The notes under the pieces are model-generated. The model was given only the letters and a program-made list of their open reading frames with translations, searched no databases and was not told the origin of the DNA. This document shows positions 19,907 to 24,034 of a DNA stretch of 64,000 bases, piece after piece (within the stretch, counting starts at the first letter, position 1; each line of letters starts with the position of its first letter). The stretch spans positions 412,333-476,332 of the forward strand of contig MU119218.1 of assembly GCA_014904845.1 (NCBI GenBank), read 5' to 3'. The stretch comes from Acephala macrosclerotiorum. Lineage: Eukaryota > Ascomycota > Leotiomycetes > Helotiales > Mollisiaceae. The position numbers and the translations under genes are program-made.

Positions 19907-22471
19907 TCAATTAGTCTTGGAAAAGTAATCACTAGACTTGCGGAGTTCGTTCGGAGATTTTAGAAATCAGGATCACAGAACTGGAAGTGGCAAGAATAGC
20001 TGTGGGCACAAATTTGGAAAGCATTGCATCTCAAAGGCGTTAGTGGCAAAGTCTAATAAAACTGGGAATAGTTTGTTACACAAAACCAGCATGGGCCGTG
20101 CTCTTGTACTTGTACAATAATTCAGAATAGTCAGTTGGTCCCGAGGAAAACGTCCAAAAAAAATTCAATTTTCAAGGTAATGCTGATAAATGATTTTTCG
20201 GTTTTTGTTGGGAGTCGTCGTCGTTGTCAACCAATGACCTCCAAGCTGACACTCAATACGACCCGGACCACGGCGCTTTTATTCCGTTGCATTCAGCCGT
20301 GTCCGTAGTTCGTATATAAACTCTTTTGTCCAAACAAACTTCGCTGCTCTAGGATGCAAAAGAAGGGTGGAGGGCTAAGATGGCTATTGGCAGTCGGGAA
20401 GACGGTCTTGGGATAGTGGAAAGCATGTCGCAGAATCGGGCGCAGGTGCGATTTGCAACAAAGATTCTTCCTAGTGAGACGGATAGGAGGAGGGGTTTGT
20501 GATTGTCATGTGAAGACGCCTCGTAGGTAAGCTTGATACTTTGATACTTCCATACCAAGAACGTCATTCTTCAGCATGTTTCCGAGTCGATTTCGAAAGA
20601 AATCAGAGTGCTCGTTCGAGGTATAGAATGATATGGAATCTGAAAATCAAGTTCAGGTGATATTGTGCTTCAAAGAGGATACCTCGAAAAGAAACCCCAG
20701 ACACTTCAATCGATGCTCGTTCCCATTTCCAGCAGCTTCGAGAGGGCAGTTGAGGCATATTCCATTTCCATTCTTTTTTGAGCAACCCTCATTTCTTTCC
20801 ATCTAACTTGACTCCATCTTCCCTTTCAAGAGAGCTCAAATCTAGACAGCAACCCACCTCTTTGCAAAAGTGCAGGCCGAGGCAGACCTTTGGTATCGGG
20901 GGCAAGTTGCTCGAGATAATCAATGAGAAGAGGCAAAGAACAAGAGAATTTCCCGTCGCAAGGGTAGAAGAGAAGTGGCAAATCGTAGCAGACACCTTCA
21001 GAGTCCAAATGCTAGTATGCAGACTGTCAACCTTGGTATTTTCGATGACTACGTTGAAACTAAGTGAAGGTGTGGGTAGCATCATTGAGAAAAAGTGGGA
21101 TTATCCGCTACTTGGGAGCCGACTTGTTTGGCATCTCCAGTGGATATGTTGATATTTCAAGTAGTATGATTGATGAGCTGCGGGGATAGGGGTCAAGAGA
21201 TTGAGTTGATATAGTTAAGTTAGATACGACAGAAGGTAGTTTGGGTGTTGATGAGGAGAAGCAGATGCTGATTCAAGGGGCGTTGGGGAGGTAGGATGTG
21301 GTGAGTAAGCAGATAGTCTAAATGGCGTCGAGAAATCGAGGAGCTTTCAGATGACAACAACCGCAGAGATTGAGAAGATCGTCCGCTCCGATAGAACGAG
21401 CGGTTAAGACGAGATGCTGGTTTACTCTATGACAGGGGGCAATAGATGGGGAATGTGACGAGATGCATAGAGACGGGAGGATGAGCGATGAAGCTGAAGT
21501 CGAAGAGATTCCACTGGTCTCGAACGAATTGAAAGTCAGGCTTCGAAAAAACAACGAAAGTCTTGATACTGGCATTCTTGTGCACAATCTCCCACAAACG
21601 ATTTGAAACAGGTTCTAGGTACACCCTGGATTGAGAACTTCGTCCAACTGCATGGTTTCATAGTTGCCACAATCCTGAGAAAGGGCGCCTCGATGGCTTC
21701 ACCTTTGTACAACCCCCTCTCCCCCCACCCCCAAACAAAGCGCTGTCATCATATGAGAGCAAGGTATGCGGCTGTTACTTCCAACACACTTGAGAAATGC
21801 GTAAGGACGGTCCTTAATATGAGGCAGATAACCTCCCTCGTTTTCATAGCTGACGGGAACACTCAAGTATTTCGCACTATCAAGAAGTCATGGGCCACCT
21901 TGGTGAACACATTTGTTTGCCAAAGGTAAGTGCCAAGGATCACAACGATACCCTTTTCAAGGCTAGCTTGATAGCCGAGTTCAGAAGCATTCACCAAAAT
22001 ACTTAAATCTTGTTTTAGCAGTGAAAACTGAAAGTCAGAAGTTCGAGGGAAGGAAGACCTCGACCTCTAAAAAGAAAACCGTCGAGGAAACTAAGTGGAT
22101 AGGGAGCTCACAACCTCTCGTACAATAGCACATGGAACTAGTCCACTTGACACATTTGAAATCGAGTTGTTGCAAACCCGTCGTGCATCCCAAAGGCCTT
22201 TCTTATTGACCAGGGACAATGACTAGCAAAATATGGAGTTTAAGAACGTATTTAAGATTCAAACCCAATATTGTTTTAAGAATATACCTTGAACGGGCAT
22301 CCGTTGGAAGCTCAACTTCACTGCTTTGGAGTTGATGAGGTGGTGGGGTCTCGCTTGGCATCAACCGTCCCCACATAACAGGACAAAACAAGAAAGAAGG
22401 GAAAAAATCTAACTTCGAAAGACAGTCCCAAACAACAAAAACGAAACGAGTCATCATGAATTCGGGAATTG
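19907..22471. other. Gene-poor stretch left of the tRNA
   Basis: About 2.6 kb with only short open frames on either strand. A minus-strand fragment near 21430-21620 reads like part of a real protein (RLWEIVHKNASIKTFVVF) but has no start or domain, so it may be a gene remnant. No other feature was recognised. Confidence 0.4.
22402..22441 (-). terminator. Candidate Pol III T-run terminators after the tRNA
   Basis: On the minus strand, T5 lies at 22441-22437 and T6 at 22407-22402, 30 and 64 nt past the discriminator base. These are compatible with Pol III termination but could be chance in AT-leaning DNA. Confidence 0.35.
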
Positions 22472-22480
22472 AGCCCGAGG

Positions 22481-22527
22481 CTGAGGATTTATTAGTTATG
22501 CTTTTCGATCATCGAGATTGAACATAC
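22481..22527 (-). other. Spliceosomal-type intron in the tRNA T stem (47 nt)
   Basis: Donor GTATGT, branch AACTAAT about 12 nt before the acceptor CAG. It separates T-stem position 64 from 65. Its removal restores the fifth T-stem pair and brings the 3' acceptor strand next to the T arm. Confidence 0.75.
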
Positions 22528-22536
22528 CGGGGCTCG

Positions 22537-22585
22537 CTATACACAGCATTAGTATTGAATCTGATTCTTCAGAATTGTTACTTAC
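22537..22585 (-). other. Spliceosomal-type intron in the tRNA T loop (49 nt)
   Basis: Donor GTAAGT, branch TACTAAT 12-13 nt before the acceptor TAG. It splits the T loop between T55 and C56, and so splits the B box GGTT|CGAGCC. Length and signals match the protein-gene introns of this window (45-60 nt). Confidence 0.75.
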
Positions 22586-22602
22586 AACCCGCGACCTTGA
22601 GG

Positions 22603-22615
22603 TTATCTTATAGCT
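22603..22615 (-). other. Canonical anticodon-loop tRNA intron (13 nt)
   Basis: Sits one base 3' of the anticodon region, between positions 37/38 and 39 (exact edge ambiguous because of flanking A). It contains ATAAG, which can pair with CTTA(T) of the anticodon loop as usual for introns cut by the tRNA splicing endonuclease. Confidence 0.75.
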
Positions 22616-22653
22616 TTAAGAGCCACACGCTCTACCGATTGAGCTACCCGGGC

Positions 22654-24034
22654 TTCGGGTATTTGATGGCTGCAGAAGTTGTAATTTCAACATATACCAC
22701 CGTGTTGATGTGGGTTGCCGAAGTGCCTTCGGTTGAACGAGGATGCCGAAGAAATTTTCAAATTTTCACCGAAGTGGACTCCCATCAATCTTGCCCGGCC
22801 AAGGAACTTATTATGGTCTCATTGGTACTGGCTAAGTAGATATCCCAAGAGTTTGTCTTGATTTAGTAAGAAGAAAGACTTCTTGTAAGGTTATGCCGTG
22901 AGCATTTGCTGCTTGGCAGAGAAGTTTAGAAATAACGACCGCAACAGTAAACTGAGCGTCAAATATAATTACCATTGTCGAGCCACGGTGTGACTATTGC
23001 AAGGAAACATTCTCAGGAGATATTTATCCACCTGCCAAGATTTGAAACGGCAAATGTACCCAAATTGAGCACCGGAAGTCAGACAGACCTTCGAGCATCA
23101 GACTTGTTGAGGTTTGAAAGGTCGGACTCTAACATCAAATGCTAGAACGTCACATTTCCCGAACCAATGGTTATGCAATCCCCCTATAACCAGCCCAGAT
23201 ATTCGTTGTCTTGTTCATTAGAATTCAGGAGCTAAGTCTCATCGAGTTGATCTAATAGGTCTTCATTCTGCGTCTCGAAAACTTGGACTATCCTCTTGAG
23301 TGATGAAAAACAGCATCTGCAACCCCCGTGAGAGCAAGCCTGACTGCACATCGGGCAGAACAAACATCTAAAAACTTTGCAGCAAAGAGTTTGGTGTCTT
23401 ATAATGAACCACTCGAAACCCGAAGCACTGAACAGCGGTGGTTGTGGTTGTAAAAGATCATCATTCCGAGCACTGAGGAGAGGACTTCAACTCTGGGAAG
23501 TAAGTTTGGGCGCATAAATTTTACAGCAGAGGTGCATCAAGTCACCTTAAAGCGAAGTTGAGAGGTCTGGTTTGATTCTTGCGAAGAAGTTAGGCCAAGA
23601 ATCGAGGTGGAGGTAACGGGCACAGAGGAAGCTCGAACTGGGTCGGAAGACAAACTTTGGGGGATTTTGAAGGATCTGGGGAATGGTGCTTCACCCTTTG
23701 CTTGGATTTGAAGTTCAATATTAAAGAGGATGTAGTTTTGCAGGGAATCAACTCTCATTCTACTCATTCAGGAAAAGGGGCACTTAGACGACATGGCATA
23801 TCGGTCAAATTCCAAAGGAGAGAGAAAGGAGGTATTCACCTCGATAGAGTGGCGTATGTAGTTTCTGGTCTCTTGACATATTGAAATGAATTTGAGGGAA
23901 AGGAAAGAGAGGTGTTCTTAGCAGTGTCCCGGTTGCACGGACCACTTATTGATGCCTGAGGCAACAATAAAAGTATATTTCCTTGCATTGAAACTTCACT
24001 GTTGATCTATTGGCATTGACAACCTCTGCTCACC
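22654..24034. other. Intergenic region between the tRNA and uL29m
   Basis: About 1.4 kb. Includes the upstream flank of the tRNA and the promoter of the ribosomal protein gene. Only short open frames, none with a recognisable domain. Confidence 0.45.

Follow-up and report, generated by a model that had tools for sequence, protein, structure and literature searches.

Spliceosomal-type introns in a lysine tRNA gene and in 22 further tRNA genes of the fungus Acephala macrosclerotiorum

The window (a stretch of 64,000 nt from Acephala macrosclerotiorum) contains a tRNA-Lys(CUU) gene that is interrupted three times, once at the canonical site next to the anticodon and twice in the T arm by inserts with the splice signals of mRNA introns. 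Very probably this is a functional nuclear gene and belongs to a set of 23 or more tRNA genes of the same genome that carry true spliceosomal introns, are transcribed by RNA polymerase III (Pol III), and are matured by both the spliceosome and the tRNA splicing endonuclease. The parts of the gene are as follows.

22472..22653, minus strand: tRNA-Lys(CUU) gene with three interruptions
22586..22653, minus strand: exon 1, 68 nt including a 13-nt insert; acceptor 5' strand, D arm, anticodon arm with its own intron, variable loop, T stem 5' strand, T54 and T55
22604..22616, minus strand: canonical intron of 13 nt at 37/38, its exact ends assigned by hand
22537..22585, minus strand: spliceosomal-type intron 1, 49 nt, GTAAGT..TACTAAT..TAG, between positions 55 and 56
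22548..22552, minus strand: CTAAT branch-point-like motif of intron 1, putative branch A at 22549, 12 nt before the 3' end
22528..22536, minus strand: exon 2, 9 nt, C56 to G64
22481..22527, minus strand: spliceosomal-type intron 2, 47 nt, GTATGT..AACTAAT..CAG, between positions 64 and 65
22491..22495, minus strand: CTAAT branch-point-like motif of intron 2, putative branch A at 22492, 11 nt before the 3' end
22472..22480, minus strand: exon 3, 9 nt; C65, acceptor 3' strand and discriminator

A sequence-only reading of this locus had proposed that removing 13, 49 and 47 nt from the 182-nt minus-strand span leaves 73 nt with a canonical tRNA fold, and had given the borders and inner motifs of both T-arm inserts. 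All of this reads in the DNA as claimed, and after excision seven of seven acceptor pairs and five of five T-stem pairs form; a U29·U41 mismatch, which leaves the anticodon stem with 4/5 pairs (by hand) and is the same in 4/4 Lys(CUU) paralogues, had gone unmentioned. The comparison of spliced with unspliced sequence in a tRNA finder, which that reading had suggested, agrees with it: ARAGORN calls nothing in the unspliced window gene, whereas removal of the two T-arm inserts yields a cloverleaf, its anticodon misread because of the third (anticodon) intron. In the Rfam tRNA search the unspliced gene scores 25 bits, below the 29-bit cut-off. The intron at 37/38, the counterparts of which are 12, 12 and 9 nt long in the three paralogues, is expected to be a substrate of the tRNA splicing endonuclease.

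Searching the assembly (69.66 Mb in 778 contigs; the window lies on G000:C17) with the window locus returned three further Lys(CUU) copies, on C7, C24 and C134, with both T-arm inserts at identical sites. The mature tRNA parts of the four copies are identical except for one base of the T loop, and the anticodon intron is variable. By pairwise alignment, the interiors of the T-arm introns are 28–59% identical, compared with 33 ± 9% for shuffled pairs; what is conserved within these introns is the 5' splice site, CTAAT or CTAAC near the end, and the final AG. (Intron 2 of copy d, one of the eight Lys(CUU) T-arm introns, has CTCAT and no YTRAY, and is the exception among all the introns described below.) The alignment with other Lys(CTT) genes that the sequence-only reading had called for, carried out within this genome, thus yields three paralogues that keep tRNA exons and splice signals around diverged intron interiors. 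That reading had also held that intact Lys(CTT) genes elsewhere, together with a lack of spliced reads and of intron conservation in relatives, would speak for a pseudogene; no intact gene was found within this genome. Its proposal that the spliceosome and the tRNA endonuclease may both be needed gains strong support within this genome from the conservation among paralogues, from the pairs of genes with and without introns described below, and from the lack of any intact Lys gene found.

Queries with mature Lys-CUU and Lys-UUU sequences gave five loci; all five candidates were scored and all five are interrupted. No intact Lys tRNA gene was found in the assembly by searches with mature sequences, with the locus, with the Rfam tRNA model or with DNA queries, and lysine decoding would therefore depend on intron removal, unless a gap in the assembly conceals an intact gene. 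For Val-AAC, 3/3 loci found carry two spliceosomal-type introns each. Since anticodon-loop introns are also present in Lys-CUU, Val-AAC, Ser-GCT, Phe, Leu and Glu-CTC genes, both machines should be needed for the maturation of tRNAs whose genes carry the two kinds together.

Interrupted genes were sought genome-wide through the Rfam tRNA search, DNA queries and TATA sites. We found 31 spliceosomal-type introns in 23 tRNA genes (22 besides the window gene), on many contigs. These genes represent 11 amino acids and 13 anticodons: four Lys-CUU, one Lys-UUU, three Val-AAC, three Glu-CTC, two Glu-TTC, two Ser-GCT, two Gln-TTG, and one each of Leu-TAA, Arg-TCG, Phe, Thr-AGT, Met and Trp. The introns occupy 12 positions in standard numbering (assigned by hand), namely 6/7, 9/10, 13/14, 19/20, 23/24, 25/26, 47/48, 49/50, 52/53, 53/54, 55/56 and 64/65. 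One member of the Glu-CTC family (L135, G000:C11:351980-352270) has the family intron and the anticodon TTC, an apparent anticodon switch.

With 38 uninterrupted genes counted, 23 of the 61 tRNA genes identified are interrupted, in a catalogue that is incomplete because 63 of 2302 Rfam candidates were scored and several isotypes were not found. The 38 comprise 33 of the 37 Rfam rows over the cut-off (three others are interrupted and one is degenerate) together with L065, L070, L113, L125 and L132, each of which ARAGORN calls as a tRNA, L070 with the wrong isotype. Queries modelled on tRNAs of yeast and filamentous fungi matched only a Pro-AGG locus and an initiator-Met-like locus, and Asp, Tyr, Cys, Gly-GCC, Ala-AGC and other genes were not found with them. 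Left out of the 23 were L071, the tRNA-like but unclear loci L086, L090, L099 and L126, a truncated Thr copy (C13:103628) and a degenerate Thr copy (C276:28356); ARAGORN makes no tRNA call in L086 or L099. Among these, L071 (G000:C17:201602-201671, minus strand) is an initiator-Met-like candidate with GTAAGA..ACTAAC..TAG immediately upstream and an exon 1 that is not clear. The truncated Thr tRNA (L066, G000:C13:103628-103684, minus strand) keeps the 3' end of the intron and lies near the interrupted Thr gene, on the opposite strand.

Excision of the introns restores a cloverleaf throughout the set, with seven of seven acceptor pairs in 23/23 genes and five of five T-stem pairs in 22/23 (four of five in Thr); the Arg gene was counted for both stems once its discriminator base had been added. 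ARAGORN called all 18 genes tested as tRNAs when spliced (misnaming the four Lys(CUU) genes and Phe) and 3/18 when unspliced, all three with the wrong isotype. Because 115 of 324 excisions shifted to wrong positions also passed as tRNAs, an ARAGORN call is weak taken alone, and we relied on paralogues instead.

Intron-free paralogues in the same genome match the spliced genes closely. The spliced Trp gene (L037) equals the intron-free L020 letter for letter, the spliced Thr-AGT gene (L066) equals L007 exactly, and the spliced Glu-CTC genes L127, L133 and L134 equal L132 exactly. The spliced Met gene (L068) differs from the intron-free L021 solely in a compensatory change of G6–C67 to U6–A67, and the second intron of the Ser-GCT gene L069 is absent from L040. 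Further compensatory pairs between copies, read from the alignments, are at 7–66 in Gln and 30–40 in Ser; use of the spliced tRNA would lead one to expect such changes. Within the Lys, Val, Glu, Gln and Ser families, exons (with the anticodon intron included) are 91–100% identical, whereas intron interiors are 12–60% identical, against a baseline of 33 ± 9% for shuffled intron pairs. As judged from exon identity and compensatory changes set against diverged introns, the mature tRNA sequence is under selection.

The inserts themselves have the features of spliceosomal introns. All 31 begin with GT and end with AG, a count that is partly selected because the genes were recognized by eye through GT..AG between tRNA parts; where it is an intron-free paralogue that fixes the ends (seven introns, in Trp, Thr, Met, three Glu-CTC and the second one of Ser-GCT), GT..AG is found in 7/7. 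The 5' splice site fits GTRNGY in 27/31, and YTRAY lies 10–16 nt before the 3' site in 30/31. The stricter CTRAY is found in 27/31, whereas shuffled interiors had it at the right distance in a mean of 1.8 of 31 and a maximum of eight (2000 rounds). Lengths are 47–59 nt, and the 3' splice sites are CAG in 13, TAG in 12 and AAG in six. GTAAGT and GTATGT are also the commonest 5' splice sites among introns inferred from open reading frames of this genome, a set that was chosen for GTRNG. When the 31 introns were compared with one another by BLAST, all matches were 11–23 nt long, the longest of them between homologous Val introns, which gives no sign of a shared element; an introner-like origin was rejected on this ground.

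We also considered whether the introns avoid T runs, as expected for Pol III transcripts. Runs of T4 or longer are found in 1/24 tRNA introns, compared with 15/62 ORF-inferred introns (p 0.034; some members of the latter set are false positives, and one or more are tRNA introns), with an average of 4.5 in shuffles (p 0.031), and with 4/38 length-matched ORF-inferred introns (p 0.64). Avoidance is thus weakly supported, and it was dropped as a proof of Pol III transcription.

Signals outside the genes point to TATA-led transcription by Pol III. An upstream element like TATAGATTTAAATAAGCA precedes most tRNA genes of this genome; with at most five mismatches it is found at 21/23 interrupted and 31/33 intact genes, versus 1% of random 70-mers. 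(L110 and L127 lend it no independent support, as it was the TATA element that led to them.) In the interrupted genes it starts 33–61 nt, mostly 40–49 nt, before the tRNA. The best-scoring U6 copy (L140) has the same upstream element. Downstream, a T5 run lies within 45 nt of 22/23 interrupted and 28/33 intact genes, and a T4 run of 23/23 interrupted genes. It is the presence of the TATA element upstream together with T runs downstream that suggests this mode of transcription. At the window gene the corresponding features are as follows.

22679..22696, minus strand: weak TATA-like element, six mismatches to TATAGATTTAAATAAGCA, 43 nt before the tRNA start
22465..22475, minus strand: GGCTCAATTCC, B-box-like with one mismatch, across the tRNA 3' end and a conserved trailer
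22437..22441, minus strand: TTTTT, the expected Pol III terminator

Two interrupted genes have no TATA element within five mismatches, the window gene among them, and the six mismatches of the window gene's own element are also reached by 6.5% of shuffled upstream regions; its three Lys(CUU) paralogues have the element with one to three mismatches, 42–43 nt before the tRNA start. A leader motif close to CATCCAATCA recurs between the TATA element and the tRNA start (at L110, L066, L133 and others) and is perhaps a start site.

The internal promoter fares differently among the families. The B box is kept in the DNA of Glu, Arg, Leu, Gln, Thr and other genes, in Glu, Arg and Leu because the final AG/G of introns at 52/53 or 53/54 substitutes for exon bases. 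It is broken by the intron at 55/56 in Val and in Lys (intron 1 of the window gene), which should lower the binding of TFIIIC. GGCTCAATTCC is identical in 4/4 Lys(CUU) genes, and a perfect GGTTCAATTCC occupies the equivalent place in Trp; possibly both act as B boxes, the one in Lys replacing the box that is interrupted. As about 5% of random 200-mers (151/3000, tRNA loci included) contain a B-box-like match with one mismatch or better, what carries weight is that all four copies have kept it. In Val no substitute B box with fewer than three mismatches was found.

The TATA pattern with at most one mismatch occurs at 2808 sites genome-wide, against 1531 for the reversed control. Sixty exact sites chosen among the matches listed included four clear tRNA genes, and many others of the sixty form, by eye, paralogous families with T runs behind them (L072, L078, L087 and L102; L084, L103, L106 and L128; L077, L117 and L120). 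Twenty non-tRNA loci at TATA sites had no match in Rfam at E 0.1, and these families are possibly a large set of new Pol III RNAs. A further Pol III-like family that is not tRNA (L121, L098, L122 and L080, with nine genome matches) has the TATA element and the B box GGTTCAAATCC. Alignment of these four of its copies exposes a GTAAGT/C..ACTAAC..AG segment with a diverged interior and conserved flanks, which may be another spliceosomal-type intron, here in a Pol III RNA other than tRNA.

The spliceosome ordinarily works in connection with transcription by RNA polymerase II (Pol II). The introns might accordingly be spliceosomal in genes that Pol II transcribes, on their own or as part of a longer Pol II transcript, with the tRNA cut out later; TATA boxes are not confined to Pol III genes, Lys and Val have a broken internal B box, and the window gene's own TATA-like element is weak. 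We nonetheless regard this course as improbable, given that the same TATA element stands before U6 and nearly all intact tRNA genes, that T5 runs follow closely behind 22/23 interrupted genes, and that the B box of the DNA outlasts the intron in Glu, Arg and Leu. Moreover, no reading frame of at least 90 aa on the window gene's own strand covers the gene, and one 94-aa frame with a TTG start overlaps it on the opposite strand. An origin of the pattern in misassembly or contamination, which a draft of 778 contigs might invite, is hardly credible: the four Lys loci lie on four contigs with differing flanks and introns, and interruptions recur in 23 genes on many contigs.

Odd insertions in eukaryotic tRNA genes have usually been judged pseudogenes, according to parts of PMC4090602, and the present ones could be functionless inserts with chance splice motifs. 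This is very improbable, and we set it aside in view of near-identical exons around diverged introns, the compensatory base-pair changes, excisions that give an intron-free paralogue exactly, and the lack of any intact Lys gene found in this assembly. Lower still is the probability that the tRNA splicing endonuclease cuts the inserts at bulge-helix-bulge (BHB) motifs, in the manner of archaea and Cyanidioschyzon, their likeness to spliceosomal introns being coincidence. Several of these tRNAs do have ordinary anticodon introns as well, and non-canonical BHB-type introns are described in nuclear tRNA genes of a red alga in sections of PMC3978253 and PMC4090602. The strict BHB helix, with four terminal pairs between two 3-nt bulges, however, can be formed by 0/31 introns (three pairs by 3/31, two or fewer by 28/31), and the strict motif was rejected; BHB introns, in turn, need neither the GT..AG ends found in all 31 nor the branch motif at a narrow distance found in 30.

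We infer a course of maturation from the gene structure, the splice signals, the conservation among paralogues, the exact pairs with and without introns, the TATA-like element and the terminator, all of which can be read in the DNA. Pol III would initiate from the upstream TATA element, as at U6, and terminate at the T run; the spliceosome would then excise the GT..CTAAT..AG introns from this Pol III transcript and so restore the T arm; the tRNA endonuclease and ligase would take out the separate anticodon intron; and ordinary end processing would come last. Given that many tRNA genes, and every Lys gene found, are broken by mRNA-type introns, the making of these tRNAs probably needs the spliceosome. 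We further consider it likely that the spliceosome is an essential tRNA-maturation machine here, through which every Lys and Val(AAC) gene found passes, and that TATA-led transcription by Pol III let the introns spread. Freed by the upstream TATA element from unbroken internal promoters, tRNA genes could have taken up introns as mRNA genes do, and the same freedom would admit spliceosomal introns into other Pol III RNAs.

Precedents exist for spliceosomal introns in structured RNAs. Sections of PMC5832005 describe such introns in fungal U6 small nuclear RNA (snRNA) genes and present U3 and U6 as the only small structured RNAs then known to be often interrupted. Fungal U6 is alike in having short spliceosomal introns in a Pol III gene for a small structured RNA; it is, however, one gene family, itself part of the spliceosome, whereas here at least 23 tRNA genes are affected, some of which also carry an endonuclease-type intron. 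(Here, four U6 matches that pass the cut-off cover the full model and so lack an intron.) Fungal U3 snoRNA, another small structured RNA with ordinary spliceosomal introns, is not a tRNA, and its introns lie almost all in one stem-loop, whereas those of the tRNA genes lie at 12 positions. An mRNA intron in fungal 18S rDNA is named in a title cited in PMC11782384. As far as is known to us, the precedents are thus U6, U3 and fungal rRNA.

Among tRNA genes the nearest parallels are those of Cyanidioschyzon merolae and nucleomorphs, which, in the portions of PMC3978253 and PMC4090602 that deal with them, are interrupted outside 37/38, may hold several introns per gene, and include too few standard-looking tRNA genes. 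An upstream TATA box, which at tRNA genes of C. merolae is proposed in the same portions to make TFIIIC dispensable, is a likeness to the genes described here. The C. merolae introns differ in that they are described there as having BHB motifs cut by the tRNA endonuclease, whereas those described here have GT, branch motif and AG and leave a strict BHB impossible. PMC4090602, in its available text, takes non-canonical insertions in eukaryotic tRNA genes to be mostly single odd copies, with nucleomorphs and C. merolae as the true cases, and the words spliceosome and spliceosomal are absent from its main text. Nuclear tRNA introns otherwise lie at 37/38 and have a dedicated endonuclease, apart from some algae (PMC3978253, in part). 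The window gene has this canonical intron too; its T-arm introns, which differ from it in position, ends and machinery, are additional.

In open full-text literature, none of the titles and abstract openings of the matches listed describes nuclear tRNA genes with spliceosomal introns. To our knowledge there is no case of tRNA genes as hosts of spliceosomal introns, at such a scale and combined with endonuclease introns. The exact pattern of the Lys T arm with its intron had no match in prokaryotic contigs and none in viral contigs. A 215-aa reading frame of the window has its closest match in PAC_12341 of Phialocephala subalpina (78% identity over 92%) and is 59% identical to a protein of Mollisiaceae sp., in keeping with the leotiomycete setting that the sequence-only reading had assumed. 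P. subalpina has a genome of 69.69 Mb with 91 tRNA genes for all amino acids, by the figures in an excerpt of PMC5148876.

If the proposed course is true, the machine that splices mRNA is required for essential tRNAs, and translation in this fungus depends directly on splicing. It would also mean that the spliceosome can act routinely on Pol III transcripts, and that tRNA genes are able to gain and carry mRNA-type introns at many positions. Genes interrupted in this way can be missed by tRNA finders, as the silence of ARAGORN on the unspliced window gene illustrates. Finally, paralogues with and without introns in a single genome make intron gain and loss in a small structured RNA directly testable.
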